From contig JAUXWS010000024.1 of assembly GCA_030685015.1 (NCBI GenBank), forward strand, positions 1 through 15,855: 15,855 nucleotides of DNA, written 5' to 3'. Below are positions 1 through 13,313 of this stretch, in pieces. Source of the stretch: a bacterium (GTDB taxonomy: Bacteria > CAIWAD01). Each line of letters begins with the position of its first letter. Within the stretch, counting starts at the first letter, position 1. A model generated the notes under the pieces. It saw only the letters and a program-made list of their open reading frames with translations. It was not told the DNA's origin and made no database searches. A program made the position numbers and the translations under genes.

Positions 1-1635
1 CAGGTCCAGCGAGTAGGAACCGATGCGGGCCTGCCGCTGCGCCTCCTCCAGCATGCGCGAGGTCTCGCGCAGCTGCTCCACGGCCAGGCGGCGCTCGGTC
101 ACGTCCTGGATGATGCCGTAGGTGCCGATGGTGCGTCCGGCGCTGTCCCGGCGCAGGAAGGTGCGCACGCTGATCCAGCCCTCCGTGCCGTCCCCGAAAC
201 GCACCCGCTGCTCCACCTGATGGGTGAAATCCGGCTGACTGGCCGCCTGGGCCTGGAAATGCTCCCGCTCCACCGCGTCGCTCTCGTCCGGATGGTGGAA
301 GCGGTGCTGGTAATCGACGAGAGGCATCGAGTAGCCGCCCTGGGCCTCCGCCGTGGTGCGCAGCACGGTGTAGAACTGGTCGTTGAAGGCGAAGCGGTCA
401 CCGGCGGGATCGTACTCCCAGTGGCCCAGGCGCGCCATGGCGACGGCGTCGGCCAGGCGGCGCTCGCTGTCGCGCAGGGCCTCCTCGGCCCGCTTCCGTT
501 CGCTGATGTCCTGGGTGATGACGACGATGCGGTCCACCGCCCCCGCCTCATCGGGGATGGCATAGAAGTGCTGGGAGATCCACTCCGCCGAACCGGGGCG
601 GCGGCCCCGCGTGCGCATTTCCGGGATGGCCAGGCGGCCTCCCTCGCGATAGACGCGCCGGATCTCCTCCCACCAGGGCAGGCTGTAGTCGTCCCGCTCG
701 TCCAGGCGCAGGTCCTGGCGCGGACGCGCCATGTCCTCCAGCACGTCCTCGGCCGGAATGGCCCAGATGCGTCGCCAGGCGTCGTTGGCCGAGATGAGCC
801 GCCCATCCCCGCTGCGCACGCTGATGCCCAGCGGGGAGCTTTCCAGCACGGCGCGCATGAAGTGCTCGCTGCGGCGGAGGGATTCCTCGGCCTGGCGCCG
901 GGCGCTGATGTCCAGCGCCACGAAGGTGACACCCTGCTCGGGATGGCGCGCGTTGGCCGGCGTGCTGTTGAGCAGGATGTGGATGAGCGAGCCGTCCTTT
1001 CGCCGCCAGATGGTCTCCACCGTGCCGGTGCCGCACTGCTCGATCTGGCGGTACTTCTCGCGCCCCACCTCCTCGTAAGCATCCTCCGTCGGATAGAGGA
1101 GGCGCGCGCCCTGTCCCAGCAGCTCGTGCCGTTTGTAGCCGACCATGCGGCAGAGCGTCTCGTTGGCCTCGAGGATCACCCGCTCCCGCGTCAGCCCGAT
1201 TCCCACCGGCGCCGCGCGGAAGATGCTGCCCAGCCGCTCCTCGCTGCGGCGCAAGGCGTCCTCGGCGGCTTTGCGGCCACTGATGTCGCGCGCCACGGCC
1301 ACCACCACCGGCCGGTCCTCCCAGAAAGCCGCCGAGAGGCTGACATCCTTGGGGAAGATGGACCCGTCGGCGCGGCGACCCCAGAACTCGAAGCGCTGGG
1401 CCTGTCCCGCCAGGGCGGCGGCCAGCAGGGGACCGAGACCCGCCAGGTCGTTGCGGCCGGGCGCGGCCAGCAGTTCCGGCATGGCGCCGATGATCCGTTC
1501 CCGCGGCAGGCCGTACATCTCCTCGGCGGCGCGGTTGACATAGAGGAAGCGGCCGCTGGTGTCCTGGATGTAGACCGCCTCCGCCAGGCCTTCGAGAATG
1601 CCCTGGTGGACGGCTGCCATGTCACTCCCGCTCAT
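1..1635 (-). CDS. Multi-PAS sensor protein, 3' end beyond the left edge
   Basis: This frame is open from its ATG at 1635 to the left edge (545 codons, no stop), so the C-terminus and any kinase or other output domain are not visible. I see tandem PAS domains at residues about 8-128, 131-252, 255-385 and 390-518, with a fifth starting near 525. Each ends in the usual linker: ARDISGRKAAEDAL, ALDISARRQAEESL, ITQDISERKRAEEAL, IQDVTERRLAVEQL. No signal peptide or membrane segment is present, so it is probably cytoplasmic. The ATG overlaps the TGA of the upstream PAS gene (ATGA), and GGGGAG lies 8 bases before it, which fixes the start and suggests translational coupling. PAS domains sense small ligands, redox state or light, or mediate dimerisation; no ligand can be assigned here. 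It is most likely a PAS histidine kinase, but a diguanylate cyclase or PAS-only protein cannot be excluded. Confidence 0.85.
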   Translation of the reverse strand, partial: MSGSDMAAVHQGILEGLAEAVYIQDTSGRFLYVNRAAEEMYGLPRERIIGAMPELLAAPGRNDLAGLGPLLAAALAGQAQRFEFWGRRADGSIFPKDVSLSAAFWEDRPVVVAVARDISGRKAAEDALRRSEERLGSIFRAAPVGIGLTRERVILEANETLCRMVGYKRHELLGQGARLLYPTEDAYEEVGREKYRQIEQCGTGTVETIWRRKDGSLIHILLNSTPANARHPEQGVTFVALDISARRQAEESLRRSEHFMRAVLESSPLGISVRSGDGRLISANDAWRRIWAIPAEDVLEDMARPRQDLRLDERDDYSLPWWEEIRRVYREGGRLAIPEMRTRGRRPGSAEWISQHFYAIPDEAGAVDRIVVITQDISERKRAEEALRDSERRLADAVAMARLGHWEYDPAGDRFAFNDQFYTVLRTTAEAQGGYSMPLVDYQHRFHHPDESDAVEREHFQAQAASQPDFTHQVEQRVRFGDGTEGWISVRTFLRRDSAGRTIGTYGIIQDVTERRLAVEQLRETSRMLEEAQRQARIGSYSLDL

Positions 1636-4160
1636 GGTTCAAGCTCCCCGCTCTTCGCGGGACCACCCAGTTCGGTGTGTGTTCCCAGCAGGCGCAGGGG
1701 CCGGCCCGCCTCGTCGTGCTCCATCAGGCGGCCCAGGGACAGGATGCGCTTCCAGGCCCCTTCCCTCGTCCGCATGCGCAGGACCAGACGGTGGTCCGTC
1801 CGGACACCGGCCGGGTACTCGCCCAGCACGCGCTCGGCCTCTGCGCGATCTTCCGGGTGGATCAGCCCGCGCCAGCGCTCCGCCGTCCAATGCGTGTCGT
1901 CCGCCTCGTATCCCAGCATCTGCGCGTACTCCGGCGTGACGACCGCCTCGCCGCTGCGCAGGTCGAGGTCGAAGAGCCCTTGGCGGGAAGCGGCCAGGGC
2001 CAGGCGCAGGCGGGCCTCGTTCTCGCGCAGCTCCTGCTCGGCCTTGATCCTGCCGCTCACGTCCAGCGCCAGCACGAGGACGGCGCGGTGCAGGGCGAAC
2101 TCGAGCGGGTGCGAGGAAATCTCGGCCAGAAGCAAGCTCCCGTCCTTGCGCAAATGGCGCCACACGCCGGCGTCATCCAGGCCGGAGGAGCCGCGGGCCA
2201 CGCTCTCGAGCAGGCGGGACACGTCCTCCGGTGGGCGGATGTCCGTGATGCGCATGCCCAGGAACTCGTTGCGGCTCCAGCCATAGGCGGCCACCGCCGC
2301 GTCGTTGACGGCAAGGAAGGCCAGGCTGTCCCGGTCGAAGACCCACATGGGATGCGGATTGGCGTCGAAGAGGAGGCGGTAGCGCTCCTCGCTCTCGCGC
2401 AGGGCCTGCTCCGCCTGCCGACGGGAGGTGATGTCGTGGACGACGGCGATGTGCAGCCCCCCTTCCCCATCCGGGACGCCCAGGGAGGACACCGTCACCT
2501 CCACCCAGACCAGGCGGCCGTCCTTGCGGGCAAGACGCAGGGTCGCCGTGATCTCGCTGGCCTGGCCGGCCAGCACCCGCTCCACGCTCTCCTGCAACGC
2601 GGGTTTCTCTTCCGGCACCAGCAGGCGCTGGTGGTCCAGGCGCTCCAGCTCGGCCCAGGAGTATCCCACCAGTTCGCAGAAACGGGGATTGGCCCATTTA
2701 AGCCGCTGCTCCAGGGCGTGGAAGAGGACGACGCCCACCGAGGCCTGCTCGAAGAGCCCGCGGAAGCGGGCCTCGCTCTCGCGCAGGGCGTCCTCGGCGC
2801 GCCGGCGGGCCGTGATGTCCTGGGAGATGGAGACGACCCGGACCACCCGGCCATCCTCCAGGACCGGGGCCAGGCGGGTGGCATACCAGACGAGGGAATC
2901 AGGGCTGCCCGCTCCCTCCAATTCGTAGTCCCGCGGCTCGCCCGTTGCCACCACCTCGCCGAAGGCCTGCCACAGGATCGGCCTTTGCTCGACCGGGACC
3001 CACAGGTCGAAAGGACGGCCCAGCACTTCCTCCATGCGAAAACCCGGCTGCAGGCGGCTCAGGAAGATGAAACGGCCTTCATGGTCCAGCTCGGCGATGA
3101 AGGCGGGGGCGTTCTCCGTCACGCTGCGCAGGCGCTGGTCACCCAGGCGCCGGGCCTCCTCGGCGACGCGCAGAGCGGTGATGTCCGTCATGACGCTCAA
3201 CCAGCAGGGCTCGCCGTCCAACTCGATGGATTCGGTGGTGCAGAGGGCGTGGCGCAGACCGCCGTCCGGCCGATGCAGGAGCAATTCCTGTCCGTCCAGG
3301 CGGTGTTCGCTCCCCAGCACGCCCTGCAGACGCTGGAACTCCTCGGGGATGAGGACGCCCATTTCCGTGGTGGTGCGGCCCATGATCTCCAGACGGGATC
3401 GGCCGAGCAGCTCGCAGAGGGCGTCATTGACGTGCAACTGGCGTCCCTGCCGGTCGGAGATGCTCATGGCCACGCCGCGGGCGTGGAAGGCTTTGGAGAA
3501 GCGCTCTTCGCTGGCCCGGAGGGCGGCCTCGGCCACCTTGCGCTCGCTGACATCCTGGGCCAGGGCCAGCACCACGGGCCGACCCGACAAGTCCACCCGG
3601 CGCAGGTTGACTTCCGCCCAGAACACACTGCCGTCCTTGCGCCGCGCCAGCCAGTGGAAGGTGGGCTGTTCCCCGGCGGCGGCCCGCTGGATCCAGCTCA
3701 GGGCCGCATTCTCACTCCAGGGGGGAAGATTGGCGCTGATCCGCGCCACGCCCACGCCCCGCAGCTCCTCAGGTTCATAGCCCCAGTCCCGGATGCCGGC
3801 GCTCACATCCAGGATCTCGCCCGTTTCCGGGTCATGGACGAAAATGGCGTCGCCTACCGTGTCAAAAATGGCGCGCAGGCGTCCCTCGCCTTCCAGGGCT
3901 CGCTGCAGCAGCTTCTCCTGGCGCTGGAGGTCGCGGCGGACCATGGCGGTCACCAGCAGGGCGGTGATGGCGACGTAGAACCAGCCCTTCCAGGTCTGCA
4001 GCCAGGAGTAGTGATGGGTGTCAACCACCAGCCAGAGCAGCACCCGGTCGCTGAGGATGATCCAGAGCGACCCGAAGAGGGCGTAGATGACGCCGATGCG
4101 GCCGGCGCGGCCCAGGGTGCCGAACATGAGCCTTCCACTGGTGGTTGATGGCCTTTCCAT
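1632..4160 (-). CDS. Membrane-anchored protein with six PAS domains and no output domain
   Basis: The 842-residue product begins with two membrane segments at about residues 23-46 (IGVIYALFGSLWIILSDRVL) and 58-74. This hairpin is common at the N-terminus of PAS sensor kinases. A short coiled linker follows, then six PAS domains at about 93-213, 217-335, 342-456, 463-585, 589-711 and 715-830. Most are joined by the D(I/V)(T/S)xRxxAExxL connector. The protein stops right after the sixth PAS, with no histidine kinase, GGDEF, EAL or response-regulator domain. The next gene on the same strand, another PAS array, starts inside its stop codon. The two products therefore probably work together, or represent one sensor split in two. 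The start at 4160 has AAGG about 10 bases upstream; Met12 is an alternative. The signal is unknown. The domain assignment is secure; the function is inferred. Confidence 0.88.
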   Translation of the reverse strand: MERPSTTSGRLMFGTLGRAGRIGVIYALFGSLWIILSDRVLLWLVVDTHHYSWLQTWKGWFYVAITALLVTAMVRRDLQRQEKLLQRALEGEGRLRAIFDTVGDAIFVHDPETGEILDVSAGIRDWGYEPEELRGVGVARISANLPPWSENAALSWIQRAAAGEQPTFHWLARRKDGSVFWAEVNLRRVDLSGRPVVLALAQDVSERKVAEAALRASEERFSKAFHARGVAMSISDRQGRQLHVNDALCELLGRSRLEIMGRTTTEMGVLIPEEFQRLQGVLGSEHRLDGQELLLHRPDGGLRHALCTTESIELDGEPCWLSVMTDITALRVAEEARRLGDQRLRSVTENAPAFIAELDHEGRFIFLSRLQPGFRMEEVLGRPFDLWVPVEQRPILWQAFGEVVATGEPRDYELEGAGSPDSLVWYATRLAPVLEDGRVVRVVSISQDITARRRAEDALRESEARFRGLFEQASVGVVLFHALEQRLKWANPRFCELVGYSWAELERLDHQRLLVPEEKPALQESVERVLAGQASEITATLRLARKDGRLVWVEVTVSSLGVPDGEGGLHIAVVHDITSRRQAEQALRESEERYRLLFDANPHPMWVFDRDSLAFLAVNDAAVAAYGWSRNEFLGMRITDIRPPEDVSRLLESVARGSSGLDDAGVWRHLRKDGSLLLAEISSHPLEFALHRAVLVLALDVSGRIKAEQELRENEARLRLALAASRQGLFDLDLRSGEAVVTPEYAQMLGYEADDTHWTAERWRGLIHPEDRAEAERVLGEYPAGVRTDHRLVLRMRTREGAWKRILSLGRLMEHDEAGRPLRLLGTHTELGGPAKSGELEP

Positions 4161-4207: not shown

Positions 4208-5244
4208 CAATCCAAAGGGGACGCCGCCCCGGCAGGCCGGTCCGGCCCAAGGCAGCGGGTCCGCAGGAGGGCCTGCTCCGCATCGGGCAGCCAGCTGATG
4301 GCGATGGCCGATTCCACCAGGGCGCGGATGGCGGCGCGATCCAGGCGGAACAGCTCCATCAGGGCGCCATATTCACCGGCCAGACTGGTGTGGAACATGG
4401 CGGGATCGTCGGTGTTGACGGACAGGCGCGCCCCCAGCTCCAGGTAGCGGCGGATGGGATGCTCCGCCAGCGAGGGGATGACGCCGGTCCGCACGTTGGA
4501 CAAGGGGCACAGCTCCAAGCCCGTGCCACGCCGCACCAGTTCGTCCACCAGGCCCCGGTCCTCCACCGCGCGCGTGGCATGGCCGATGCGGTCCACCTGC
4601 AGAAGTTCAAGGGCCTGCCGCACGCTGTCCGCCCCGGCCGCCTCCCCGGCGTGGCAACTGGTGCGCAGGCCGCGCCGGCGGGCCTCGGCAAAGATCTCCG
4701 TGAACAAGGCGGGGGGGAAGTCCGCCTCGCTGCCCCCCAGCCCGATGCCGATCACGCCCAGATCCGCGCATTCCGCCACCTGGGCCAGGGTGCGGGCGGC
4801 GCGACGGGGACCGAAGTCCCGCACCAGGTCCGGCACGAGAGCCACGCGCAGCTGCGGCACGCGGTCCAGGCCGCGGCGGAGGGCGCCCAGGATCTCCTGC
4901 GGCTCCAACCCGGAGGCGGCGAAGTCCGGCGGTGAACAGAAGGCTTCCACGTACACGTGGCCCTGGGCGGACAGGTGGCGGGCGACGGCCTCGGCGACCA
5001 GCGTGAAGTCCTCCGCCTCCCGCAGGAAGCGGTTCTTCCAGACCCAGGTGTCGATGAAATGGGCGAAGTCCCGGTAGGCGAAACGGGCCTGGAGGGCTTC
5101 CAGGCTGGGCGTGGCCGGGTCGCCGCCGTACTTCTCCGCCAAGGTCCACAGCGTGGGCAGGGGGATGGCCCCTTCCAGGTGAAGGTGTAGCTCCACTTTG
5201 GGCAGGGCCGCCAGCCAGGCCCGGTCGGACTCGTTCAGCTCCAT
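4207..5244 (-). CDS. add: Adenosine deaminase family enzyme
   Basis: This 345-residue metal-dependent hydrolase would deaminate adenosine or a related purine (for example adenosine to inosine plus ammonia) in the cytoplasm. The family motifs are all visible: KVELHLHLEG with zinc-ligand histidines at 20 and 22, CHAGE with His198 and catalytic Glu201, IGHATR with His222, and SVNTDDP with Asp279/Asp280. The length matches the family (about 330-360). The frame is open 16 codons further upstream. I chose the Met at 5244 because AAGGGG precedes it by about 10 bases and homology to the family begins close behind it (LPKVELHLHLEG). Aminodeoxyfutalosine deaminases (menaquinone pathway) and adenine deaminases belong to the same superfamily, and I cannot exclude them from sequence alone. 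The 5' end and upstream spacer are duplicated at 6705-6998. The PAS genes follow on the same strand after 46 bases. Confidence 0.88.
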   Translation of the reverse strand: MELNESDRAWLAALPKVELHLHLEGAIPLPTLWTLAEKYGGDPATPSLEALQARFAYRDFAHFIDTWVWKNRFLREAEDFTLVAEAVARHLSAQGHVYVEAFCSPPDFAASGLEPQEILGALRRGLDRVPQLRVALVPDLVRDFGPRRAARTLAQVAECADLGVIGIGLGGSEADFPPALFTEIFAEARRRGLRTSCHAGEAAGADSVRQALELLQVDRIGHATRAVEDRGLVDELVRRGTGLELCPLSNVRTGVIPSLAEHPIRRYLELGARLSVNTDDPAMFHTSLAGEYGALMELFRLDRAAIRALVESAIAISWLPDAEQALLRTRCLGPDRPAGAASPLD

Positions 5245-5406
5245 GCGGCGCGATCCCCTTGATGTGCCCAGCCTCCCGCCCCCGGCCGCCACGCAGGCCG
5301 CGCCAGGGAAGGACCGATGCGGGCGGGTTGCGGATCAAGCTCCCACTGTGCTCCATGGGACGGCGGCAAGGTGGCAAGGGCGCGGGGCACATCCAGGTCA
5401 GCACAA
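5111..5406. repeat. Direct repeat copy A (deaminase 5' end plus upstream spacer)
   Basis: This block reappears at 6705-6998 in the same orientation. It covers the first 134 bases of the deaminase coding region (on the minus strand) and 162 bases of upstream spacer. By eye the spacer part differs from copy B at only three positions (two substitutions and one inserted C), while the coding part carries small indels and more substitutions. The block has no transposase or terminal inverted repeats. Confidence 0.9.
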
Positions 5407-5513
5407 AGGGATGTCATTCAATGGTCGGAGAAGGACATGACCGCGGCGCCAGATGTCCTCCTTTGCCAGGAATGAACTACGATTGACCAAACAATTCATC
5501 AAGGGAGGGAGTC
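5407..5513. other. Leader region of the cytochrome lipoprotein gene
   Basis: This 107-base stretch lies between repeat copy A and the plus-strand cytochrome gene, and is noticeably less GC-rich than the neighbouring genes. It ends in a strong ribosome-binding site (AAGGGAGGGAG) just before the ATG at 5514. TTGCCA (5463-5468) and TTGACC (5483-5488) resemble -35 elements, but I find no convincing -10 at the right distance, so I do not call a promoter. Confidence 0.4.
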
Positions 5514-6434
5514 ATGAGATCGCATATCGTGATGGCACTGGTCGCTGCGGCGTTCATCGGTTGTTCTGGCGAAGATGGGGCCACCGGGCCACAGGGGCCG
5601 CAAGGGCCAATGGGACCGCAGGGCCCGGCTGGCGAGGATGGAACGGACTGGCCGGGTCCAGTGCCGCAGGCTTATGTCGATGCGGACGGGATCACGGGTG
5701 GTGCAGCCTTCTCGAAATGGTGGACGATTGACGGCGGCGGCAGCGGGACCGCGCCCTCCACCGCGGCCAGCAGTGAGTTCTATCGCTGCAAGTCGTGCCA
5801 TGCCTGGGACGGCTTGGGCAGCGCGGGATCCTACGCAAACCGCACCGGCCAGAGCACGGGCAACCTTGGACGGCCGGACGTGGCCGCCGTGAACCTGCGC
5901 AGCGCGGTGTACGCAGAAAGCTACCAGGAGCTATACAACTTGGTCAGCCATGCGGGCGCGCGGGATATTGATGCCGTGGACAACACGCATCCCGACTACG
6001 CTGACTTTTTGAGCGAAGACCAGATCTGGGATTTGGTCAAGTTCATGCGGGAGGAATGGGTCAATCCCAGCGACTTGTACGACTTGGCCGTGTCAGGCCC
6101 GGCTATGCGTTGGGACTATTCGGTCAATCCGGCCGTTCTGGTGTCCCCCACCTTGACCTACACCAATATTGGCGCGCTGGGCAACGAGAGTAACGGGCAG
6201 ACCCTCTACGCCAGCGCCTGTGCGGTATGTCACGGCATCGACGGCACCCAATTGCCCATTGGTGGCATCAGCGTGGGCCGCTTCATCCGCACCAAGCCTT
6301 ATGAGGCTTGGTTCAAGATCAAGTTCGGTGAGCCCGGAACGGGCATGGCGCCGGGCTTGGTGACGGCCACGTCGGATCTGCAGGACTTGTATGCCGCGTT
6401 GGCAAACACCACCAATTTCCCCGAAATGCCCTGA
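5514..6434 (+). CDS. Lipoprotein with collagen-like stalk and two c-type haem motifs
   Basis: This 306-residue product has a lipoprotein-type signal, MRSHIVMALVAAAFIGC, with Cys17 as the likely lipidated residue. Residues 22-43 are seven Gly-X-Y triplets (GPQGPQGPMGPQGPAG), a collagen-like segment. Two haem-binding motifs follow: CKSCH at 92-96 and CAVCH at 236-240. Met278 in GTGMAPG is a probable axial ligand for the second haem; the partner of the first is unclear (Met178 is a candidate). The C-terminal half resembles a cytochrome c domain (LYASACAVCHGIDG). It is most likely a membrane-tethered, periplasmic or surface dihaem cytochrome for electron transfer. The partner is unknown, and no cytochrome maturation or oxidase genes are nearby. 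The start is set by a strong AAGGGAGGGAG site. A terminator follows. Codon use is less GC-rich than in neighbours, and the gene sits between two direct repeats, which suggests insertion. Confidence 0.85.
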   Translation: MRSHIVMALVAAAFIGCSGEDGATGPQGPQGPMGPQGPAGEDGTDWPGPVPQAYVDADGITGGAAFSKWWTIDGGGSGTAPSTAASSEFYRCKSCHAWDGLGSAGSYANRTGQSTGNLGRPDVAAVNLRSAVYAESYQELYNLVSHAGARDIDAVDNTHPDYADFLSEDQIWDLVKFMREEWVNPSDLYDLAVSGPAMRWDYSVNPAVLVSPTLTYTNIGALGNESNGQTLYASACAVCHGIDGTQLPIGGISVGRFIRTKPYEAWFKIKFGEPGTGMAPGLVTATSDLQDLYAALANTTNFPEMP

Positions 6435-6451
6435 GGCAAGGCCAATCCAGC

Positions 6452-6494
6452 AAAGGCCCACGCAGCTGGTCGCGTGGGCCTTTGTTTGCCTTTT
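6452..6494 (+). terminator. Intrinsic terminator of the cytochrome gene
   Basis: A perfect 12-bp stem (AAAGGCCCACGC / GCGTGGGCCTTT) with an 8-base loop begins 17 bases after the cytochrome stop codon and is followed by a T-rich tail (TTTGTTTGCCTTTT). It fits rho-independent termination of a monocistronic transcript. Confidence 0.85.
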
Positions 6495-6548: not shown

Positions 6549-6704
6549 ACGACTGGTGAGCCGATGGACGCGGGGGAGCCGGCCCAGTTCCATGTGCTGC
6601 GTCAGAACCACCCGAACCCCTTCAATCCGGCCGCGACGATCCGCTTCACGCTGGGGGAAACCAGACCCGTCCGCTTGACGGTGTCGGATCTGCGGGGACG
6701 GCGC
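6549..6704 (+). pseudogene. Fragment of a C-terminal sorting (FlgD/T9SS-like) domain
   Basis: The plus-strand frame reads VLRQNHPNPFNPAATIRFTL, then ETRPVRLTVSDLRGRRVAG. This is the start of the conserved C-terminal domain found on many secreted proteins of FCB-group bacteria, where it directs secretion or surface attachment. A stop at 6546-6548 leaves no room for the expected large N-terminal protein. After GRRVA the sequence changes abruptly into repeat copy B, so the second half of the domain is missing too. The frame then runs into unrelated sequence and stops at 6773. It is best read as a gene remnant truncated at both ends. A Met at 6564 exists, but I see no evidence of expression. Confidence 0.75.
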
Positions 6705-6835
6705 GTGGCCGGGTCGCCCGTACTTTTCCACCAGCGACCACAGCGTGGGCAGGGGATGGCTCCTTCCAGGTGAAGGTGCAGCTCCACTTTGGGCAGAGCC
6801 GCCAACCAGGCCCGGTCGGACTCGTTCAGCTCCAT
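6705..6835 (-). pseudogene. Truncated deaminase N-terminus (duplicate of the gene at 4207-5244)
   Basis: From an ATG at 6835 the minus strand encodes MELNESDRAWLAALPKVELH then LHLEGAIP, identical to the intact deaminase. A one-base deletion then shifts the frame (CPRCGRWWKSTG in place of LPTLWTLAEKYG). Homology ends after about 44 codons, at the junction with the sorting-domain fragment. The zinc-binding HxH motif is kept but all later catalytic motifs are missing, so it cannot be an active enzyme. Confidence 0.85.
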
Positions 6836-6998
6836 GCGGCGCGATCCCCCTTGATGTGCCCAGCCTCCCGCCCCCGGCCGCCACGCAGGCCGCGCCAGGG
6901 AGGGACCGATGCGGGCGGGTTGCGGATCAAGCTCCCACAGTGCTCCATGGGACGGCGGCAAGGTGGCAAGGGCGCGGGGCACATCCAGGTCAGCACAA
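6705..6998. repeat. Direct repeat copy B
   Basis: This is the second copy of the block at 5111-5406. Its left boundary falls at a short GTGGCC-type match inside the truncated sorting domain. Its right boundary is at CAGCACAA, beyond which the two copies diverge (AGGGATG versus GCAGAGG). The part matching the deaminase spacer is nearly identical to copy A; the part matching the coding region has a 2-base deletion, a 1-base deletion and several substitutions. Confidence 0.9.
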
Positions 6999-7037: not shown

Positions 7038-8303
7038 TCAGCCCGGTTTCCGGGCGATCCACAAGCCGCGCCCGCCCAGACCCGTCTCGTCGTACTCCGC
7101 CGACAGGCCGACGGCCTCCAGGGCGGCGCGCAGCTCGGAGCGGGTGGCCAGCAGCAGCTCGTGGTGCTCGACGAAATGGCGCGTGCTCTCCGGCGTGCCC
7201 ACCAGATGGTGCAGGTCGAGCACGGAAAGGCGGCCGCGCACCAGGCTGGTGCCGAGCCGGGCGATCTTCAGCTCCGGCTCGTCGATGAAGAGGCCATGGA
7301 CGGTGCCGGGCCGCCAAGTCTCCGGCGCCAACCAAGGTTCCACCAACAGCAGTCCCCCGGGCTGGACGTGCCGGGCCATGGCGGCGCAGGCCCGCCCCAG
7401 GTCGGGCAGGGTGGTCATGTAGCCGATGGCGCTGAACAGGCAGCAGACCACATCGTAGGCGCGGCCCAGGCGGAAGTCGCGCATGTCGCCCAGATGGAGG
7501 GGCAGGTCCGGCAGGTGGCGGCGGGCTTCCGCCAGCTGGCCCGGGCTCAGGTCGAGGCCCTCGCAGGCGAAGCGGCCCCGCAGATGCTCCAGGTGGCGGC
7601 CCGTGCCGCAGGCCACGTCCAGCAGGGTGCGGGCCTCCGGCCATCGCTCATCGACCACTTCCACCAGATGGGCCGCCTCGCCGGCGTAGTCCTTGAAGGA
7701 GTAAAGCCGGTCGTACCATTCCGCGCTGGCGAAATAGGCCTCGGTGGCGCCCTCCCCCCGCACGTTGCCGACTCCCCCCGCGCGTGGTGCGGCCAGGGCC
7801 TCGATCCAGGCCGGCGCATCCGCCGCCAACAGGCGCTCCACCTGCCGGGCGTGCCGCCAGACGTGGACGACAGCGTGCTCCAGCAGCTGTTCCAGGTCGT
7901 AGTCCACACCCCAACCGGCGCGGATGCGCAGCGCCGCGATCTCCTCCTCCGACCAGTCCGCCTTGTCCGCCAGAAGGGACCAGGTGCCGGTCGGCAGGGC
8001 GCGCAGCCGCCGGCGCAGGGCGGTCAGGTCCTGCCCGGGCAGGTCCCGCGCGGGCGGGTCCGGCGGGGCGGCCGCCCCGAAGGCGGTGCGAAGCAGGTCG
8101 TCATAGACGTGGCCGGAATAGAGGACGTGCTCCAACACTTCGCGCAGGGTCAGGCCCGCGGCGCCGGGCAGGGTCCGCGGACGGGCCAGCGCCTCCTCGT
8201 CCAGGGCCTCGAGCAGGGAGTCCAGATGGAGGACGGCGCGTTCCAACTCGTCCACCAGGGCGCCCAGGGGACCAGGTCGCCAGCGTGCCGGGGCGCTTTT
8301 CAT
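7038..8303 (-). CDS. DinB-like domain fused to SAM-dependent methyltransferase
   Basis: This 421-residue protein has two modules. Residues about 10-165 look like a DinB/YfiT-type four-helix bundle, with histidines spaced as metal ligands: His59/His65 in EHVLYSGH, and His143, His147 and His151 in EHAVVHVWRHARQ. Residues about 190-420 are a class I methyltransferase: a WYDRLYSFKDYAGEA lead-in, SAM motif I LLDVACGTGRHLEHL (227-241), GLDLSPGQL, the LGDMRDF acidic loop and MARHVQPGGLLLVEPW. The lead-in and motif spacing recall small-molecule or amino-sugar N-methyltransferases of the DesVI type, but no sugar or antibiotic genes are nearby. The substrate is unknown. Its ATG overlaps the stop of the TRIC-family gene (ATGA), with GAGGAG 8 bases upstream, so it is last in that operon. 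It is probably cytoplasmic. Confidence 0.8.
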   Translation of the reverse strand: MKSAPARWRPGPLGALVDELERAVLHLDSLLEALDEEALARPRTLPGAAGLTLREVLEHVLYSGHVYDDLLRTAFGAAAPPDPPARDLPGQDLTALRRRLRALPTGTWSLLADKADWSEEEIAALRIRAGWGVDYDLEQLLEHAVVHVWRHARQVERLLAADAPAWIEALAAPRAGGVGNVRGEGATEAYFASAEWYDRLYSFKDYAGEAAHLVEVVDERWPEARTLLDVACGTGRHLEHLRGRFACEGLDLSPGQLAEARRHLPDLPLHLGDMRDFRLGRAYDVVCCLFSAIGYMTTLPDLGRACAAMARHVQPGGLLLVEPWLAPETWRPGTVHGLFIDEPELKIARLGTSLVRGRLSVLDLHHLVGTPESTRHFVEHHELLLATRSELRAALEAVGLSAEYDETGLGGRGLWIARKPG

Positions 8304-13035: not shown

Positions 13036-13040
13036 GGGCC

Positions 13041-13128
13041 GACCTGGCACCGACCTGGCACCGGCCTGGCACCGACCTGGCACCGACCTGGCACCGACCT
13101 GGCACCGACCTGGCACCGACCTGGCACC
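13041..13128 (+). repeat. Eight tandem copies of an 11-bp unit
   Basis: The unit GACCTGGCACC is repeated eight times head to tail, starting 5 bases after the oxidoreductase stop. Seven copies are identical and the third begins GG instead of GA. The 11-bp period is close to one DNA helical turn. It is non-coding on the plus strand and not strongly self-complementary. It may be a polymorphic minisatellite or an array of protein-binding sites. Confidence 0.95.
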
Positions 13129-13313
13129 GATATCACGTTTATTCAGTAATAGCAAATTTCATGTGCAATAATACATTTTCACCGTCATGATTCGGCCTAA
13201 GCAAGCCCTAATGCACGTCTCTCGAGCTTCAATCTCCATTCTCAAGGACTATCACTTGCCATTCCAAGAGCACTAAAATAAATAGTAATCGTTCCTGTTA
13301 TTGGGTGGAGCAA
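13129..13313 (+). promoter_or_regulatory. AT-rich spacer with likely promoter for the PerR-peroxiredoxin pair
   Basis: This 185-base stretch has much lower GC than its surroundings and no credible ORF. A possible sigma-70-type promoter is TTGCCA (13256-13261), a 17-base spacer, and TAAATA (13279-13284). The -10 lies within AATAGTAA...TGTTATT (13281-13302), an imperfect AT-rich inverted repeat that could be an autoregulatory operator. The promoter elements are weak matches and are inferred. Confidence 0.4.

Follow-up and report, generated by a model that had tools for sequence, protein, structure and literature searches.

A predicted lipid-anchored dihaem cytochrome c with a collagen-like Gly-X-Y spacer

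A lipoprotein gene on contig JAUXWS010000024.1 (GenBank assembly GCA_030685015.1) encodes collagen-like Gly-X-Y triplets and two haem-binding motifs in a single polypeptide of 306 residues, which raises the question of what a collagen-like segment might do for a cytochrome and where in the cell envelope it would place the haems. We analysed the whole 15,855-nucleotide stretch in which the gene lies (hereafter, the window; Table 1). We think it rather likely that the protein is a lipid-anchored dihaem electron carrier on a Gly-X-Y spacer of variable length, probably facing outward on the outer membrane.

Table 1. Features of the dihaem cytochrome gene and its flanks in the window.
Feature	Position	Strand	Basis
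Dihaem collagen-like lipoprotein gene, P0001, 306 aa	5514..6434	+	ORF, Pfam, homologue alignment
Shine-Dalgarno AGGGAGGGA (core AGGGAGGG), directly 5' of ATG	5502..5510	+	sequence
Lipoprotein signal peptide, lipobox AFIGC; Cys17 codon 5562-5564	5514..5564	+	PROSITE-type lipobox pattern; Cys position common to lipoprotein homologues
Nine Gly-X-Y triplets, aa 19-45	5568..5648	+	sequence, shuffles; Pfam Collagen E 2.3e-4, below cut-off
First cytochrome c domain, aa 54-185; CKSCH 5787-5801 (aa 92-96)	5673..6068	+	Pfam, alignment, structure model
His159, putative distal ligand, first cytochrome c domain	5988-5990	+	invariant in alignment
Second cytochrome c domain, aa 220-303; CAVCH 6219-6233 (aa 236-240)	6171..6422	+	Pfam, alignment, structure model
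Met278, putative distal ligand, second cytochrome c domain	6345-6347	+	alignment
Intrinsic-terminator-like hairpin, directly 3' of cytochrome gene	6449..6486	+	folding energy
Direct repeat (~300 bp), left copy: adenosine deaminase gene start (minus strand) and upstream region	5109..5406		repeat comparison
Direct repeat, right copy: truncated adenosine deaminase start, 95% identical	6703..6998		repeat comparison

The protein consists of a signal peptide, Cys17, the Gly-X-Y run and two class I cytochrome c domains. Its AFIGC sequence satisfies the lipobox pattern, and the run that follows the lipidated cysteine is uninterrupted (GED GAT GPQ GPQ GPM GPQ GPA GED GTD). A preliminary description of the locus had given seven triplets; we count nine after Cys17, and the register extends to ten if Gly16 is included. 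The run was described there as directly following the lipidated cysteine; Ser18 separates the two. With Gly16 included, glycine recurs at every third position ten times, whereas 20,000 composition-preserving shuffles yielded at most seven. The match to the Pfam Collagen family, at 21.3 bits, does not pass the curated cut-off of 27.2 bits. Both CXXCH motifs lie inside cytochrome c domains (PF00034, E 2e-13; PF13442, E 9e-9), and the cytochrome c families score above their curated cut-offs in two stretches each. The Pfam matches, the lipobox pattern and the shuffles thus bear out that a lipobox, a collagen-like segment and two haem c domains are united on one protein. The hairpin that closes the gene has 15 pairs and a folding energy of -40.4 kcal/mol (z -5.1), and the gene therefore looks like a single-gene unit. 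No RNA families were found in the window.

The AlphaFold2 monomer model has a confident head and a mean pLDDT of 80 over the whole chain, with residues 1-45 unordered (pLDDT < 50). Each half of the head aligns with class I cytochromes c, among them c6 and c551, with Z scores of 6-8, which are middling. A structure search found no close solved structure, which does not argue for a new fold. In alignment A1, Met278 is invariant; His159 is invariant in all 12 rows and has Met at the aligned position in the divergent branch of the family, and so behaves as expected of a distal ligand. Judging from this conservation, the first haem is probably coordinated His/His via His159 and the second His/Met via Met278.

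A scan of genomes returned 14 loci, 12 of them with long matches to the 306-residue protein. A functional Gly-X-Y segment should be retained among homologues, and eleven further proteins (about 44-67% identity), two of them at loci from later searches, indeed keep it directly after the lipobox. It comprises five triplets in L014 and L062 (Calditrichota) and in L015 (Gemmatimonadota), nine in L016 and L017 (Gemmatimonadota), 15 in L021 (Proteobacteria), about 20 in L023, 24 in L068 and 40 in L020 (all Deltaproteobacteria/Myxococcota), and 24 in L019 (Chloroflexi); L022 begins at a contig start, where the repeat is visible and its full count missing. Taxa are named after the record titles, except for L062 and L068, where the name is that of the phylum searched; by record title, about five phyla are represented. 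A Chloroflexi protein (L069:14101-15177) does pass the Pfam Collagen cut-off, with 28.7 bits. The L069 locus encodes a second dihaem protein, with 19 triplets, five genes downstream of its first. The family is rare: searches by phylum or class found it in 6/395, 3/195, 1/400, 3/39 and 1/399 genomes, counts from which divergent members may have been missed, and no relative was found in plasmid and phage collections. Retention of the segment at varying length is what a spacer would be expected to show, and the segment looks like a genuine tether that cytochromes can reuse, not a chance repeat.

The same genome provides a second example. Contig C25 encodes a 473-residue lipoprotein with ten triplets after the cysteine and nine CXXCH motifs, and relatives of this protein in G001, G003, G004 and G011 have 7-13 triplets after the lipobox, the glycine ahead of the cysteine being counted in some of them. 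The nine-haem protein matches multihaem families of the C7/C554 type and no class I domains, and hence belongs to a different cytochrome family from the 306-residue protein. When the whole genome was searched for Collagen matches, the two best (E 8e-5 and 4e-4) were these two cytochromes, the next having an E value of 0.07. In two genomes of the genus the gene for the nine-haem lipoprotein (L002:1465-2886, L013:328-1893) adjoins a rubrerythrin-like gene. Arrays of 11-bp tandem repeats, of 8 and 13 copies with different units and 96-97% match, lie at or just after a gene end at 13039-13130 of the window and at L002:2947-3091, respectively.

Other relatives carry the head on a different anchor. 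The Thermoleophilia homologue L018 has the same head (61% identity) preceded by three SLH domains (E 1e-26), without lipobox or collagen. Two Flavobacteriaceae proteins (L024, L025) have a lipobox and no collagen, and collagen is also absent from the divergent branch (L063-L066). The SLH swap and the collagen-free relatives indicate that the head is the conserved part and that the anchor is exchangeable; the collagen-free proteins L024 and L063-L066 further imply that the Gly-X-Y segment is unneeded for the core function. Parsimony on the tree of heads gives two changes of anchor type; the tree is poorly resolved (2/19 branches starred), and the order of gain and loss of the collagen segment is not recoverable from it.

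Several observations bear on the origin of the gene. Its GC3 is 0.76, compared with 0.80-0.93 in its neighbours, and at a threshold of E 1e-5 the only match in genomes of the same genus or family is to the start of the nine-haem protein; the nearest kin are found in other phyla. The gene is flanked on both sides by copies, about 300 bp long, of the start of an adenosine deaminase gene. Taken together, the low GC3, the absence from genus and family relatives and the 95% identical flanking duplication make the gene look acquired, and insertion with duplication is the simplest reading. No orthologous site, and so no empty one, was found in relatives, where the best adenosine deaminase matches are only 28-46% identical. 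Misassembly may lie behind the duplication, the assembly consisting of 105 contigs. At about 6588-6713 (+) there is a sub-threshold remnant of a T9SS type A sorting domain (FHVLRQNHPNPFNPAATIRFTL...), and similar DNA recurs at about ten further sites in the genome. Elsewhere in the window, positions 7038-8303 encode a fusion of a DinB-like domain with a methyltransferase in a single ORF (Pfam), and positions 1632-4160 an 842-residue protein made almost wholly of PAS domains, for which Pfam found no output domain.

Neither the ORF list nor a profile search revealed electron-transfer genes near the cytochrome gene in the window. Such genes do accompany the head in some relatives. In two Gemmatimonadota loci (L064, L065) the head gene is followed by genes for a C7-type protein that has five CXXCH motifs, for a molybdopterin protein closest to QrcB, for a 4Fe-4S protein and NrfD, and for a pair of tetrahaem proteins. 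In the Chloroflexi locus L069, 4Fe-4S and NrfD genes come after the head gene and NapA and NapB before it; in the Flavobacteriaceae locus L072, the head gene is followed by genes for a monohaem lipoprotein, a DUF5777 barrel, a 4Fe-4S protein and NrfD. In a third Gemmatimonadota locus (L074), genes for multihaem and 4Fe-4S proteins and for NrfD lie at a distance of about 8 kb, and L073 has 16-haem and 19-haem proteins nearby. In L062, L063, L066, L068, L070 and L071, no neighbours of NrfD, 4Fe-4S or multihaem type were recognised from the ORF lists alone. Among the relatives whose long context was read, about half showed NrfD or multihaem neighbours; the close relative L062 did not. Where they occur, they point to a part in quinol-linked respiratory electron transfer. 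The electron conduit of the preliminary description survives in part: two haems can relay electrons, but two alone cannot span the envelope, and the route rests on the neighbours of some relatives. Beside the QrcB-like, 4Fe-4S and NrfD genes of L064 (8995-11475) and L065 (8898-10589), the collagen-free dihaem unit itself is repeated within one ORF, three and two times, respectively.

On which side of the membrane the head would act is the least certain step. The preliminary description had named a surface or a periplasmic position, and the surface side gains indirect support from the SLH domains of L018. Since these stand in place of lipobox and collagen, the head of the 306-residue protein appears to lie beyond the cytoplasmic membrane and probably on the cell surface. 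It is quite possible, if not our preference, that the protein faces the periplasm as an ordinary membrane-tethered dihaem carrier, the spacer giving mobility only and serving no surface role. The periplasm is a common location for dihaem class I cytochromes, c4 among them, and the proximity of NapA/NapB and NrfD genes to the L069 homologue is a periplasmic setting. The SLH swap argues against such a location. A further lead comes from the acidic residues after the lipidated cysteine (SGED in the 306-residue protein, AGDD and AGED in the nine-haem proteins, KGDE in L014), which somewhat resemble, without matching exactly, the X-K-(D/E)2-X and SDDDD surface signals of Bacteroidetes lipoproteins (PMC5080379); the same acidic residues also belong to collagen triplets. 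A function in catalysis, as an enzyme like the thiosulphate dehydrogenase TsdA instead of an electron relay, seems very unlikely to us. TsdA is also a dihaem protein and is the best whole-chain match in Foldseek (4wq7), but the match is weak and poorly superposed (E 0.016, TM 0.18). In TsdA a cysteine ligates the active-site haem; the 306-residue protein contains Cys17, the four cysteines of its CXXCH motifs and no others, leaving none to spare for a distal ligand.

Whether the collagen-like segment is a stalk or a spacer depends on whether it trimerises. As a rigid stalk it would form a collagen triple helix and trimerise the cytochrome into a six-haem surface spike, which we consider improbable. 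A run of nine triplets that lacks hydroxyproline is short for a triple helix to be stable, the nearest homologues have five, and the 306-residue protein contains no known trimerisation domain. The segment is also unordered in the AlphaFold2 monomer model, which cannot probe a trimer. What speaks for a stalk are the 20-40 triplets of L019, L020, L023 and L068, together with the finding that longer bacterial collagens, although they lack hydroxyproline, form triple helices melting near 36 °C (PMC8968730). Triple-helix formation is therefore unlikely for a nine-triplet run, but might occur in the relatives with 20-40. The preliminary description had allowed that the segment may be only a spacer, and the triplet number, the lack of hydroxyproline and of a trimerisation domain, and the low pLDDT fit a spacer better.

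We therefore return to the lipid-anchored carrier on a spacer, which could work as follows. The signal peptide would export the protein, and signal peptidase II would leave Cys17 lipidated, as the lipobox predicts. The nine triplets and a WPG linker would form an extended, polyproline-II-like spacer holding the folded head off the membrane, probably on the outward face of the outer membrane. The head, two class I domains in tandem with the putative His/His and His/Met haems, may relay electrons from a quinol-linked or multihaem donor to an acceptor on the outer membrane or beyond it. The length of the spacer would be free to vary and would set its reach.

In research on extracellular electron transfer, how haem proteins are placed at a set distance from the membrane is an active question. 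The homologues constitute a natural series in which the same head is borne by about 5 to 40 triplets or, in one case, by an SLH anchor; the series lets reach be measured against electron transfer, and could equally reveal the length at which a bacterial collagen-like segment starts trimerising. A bolder proposal, which we regard as somewhat doubtful, is that Gly-X-Y spacers are a general, repeatedly used tether of tunable length for surface cytochromes in several phyla and at least two unrelated families, the long versions being trimeric stalks that carry haem heads outward. If true, extracellular electron transfer would gain reach by a means that has gone unrecognised. A full-text literature search for collagen-like segments combined with cytochromes found no description of the architecture, most subscription journals being outside its scope; the parts are of known kinds, and their combination is without description in the literature searched.

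Each part has a counterpart in known systems. Like MtrC/OmcA and the SLH-bearing multihaem proteins, the 306-residue protein would be an anchored c-type cytochrome placed outside, and its homologue L018 uses an SLH anchor; unlike them, it has only two haems and class I folds, and no porin partner was found at the window locus. With Scl1/Scl2 and BclA it shares an uninterrupted Gly-X-Y run at the cell envelope. Its run is far shorter than theirs and below the Pfam Collagen cut-off, no trimerisation domain is seen, and it has a lipid anchor and a redox head. The sequence similarity to solved proteins is only weak, and the first domain has an invariant His where Met is usual in class I cytochromes c. 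The dihaem cytochrome c4 (PF00034/PF13442) resembles it in having two exported tandem CXXCH cytochrome c domains, to which the 306-residue protein adds an N-terminal lipid anchor and a Gly-X-Y spacer.
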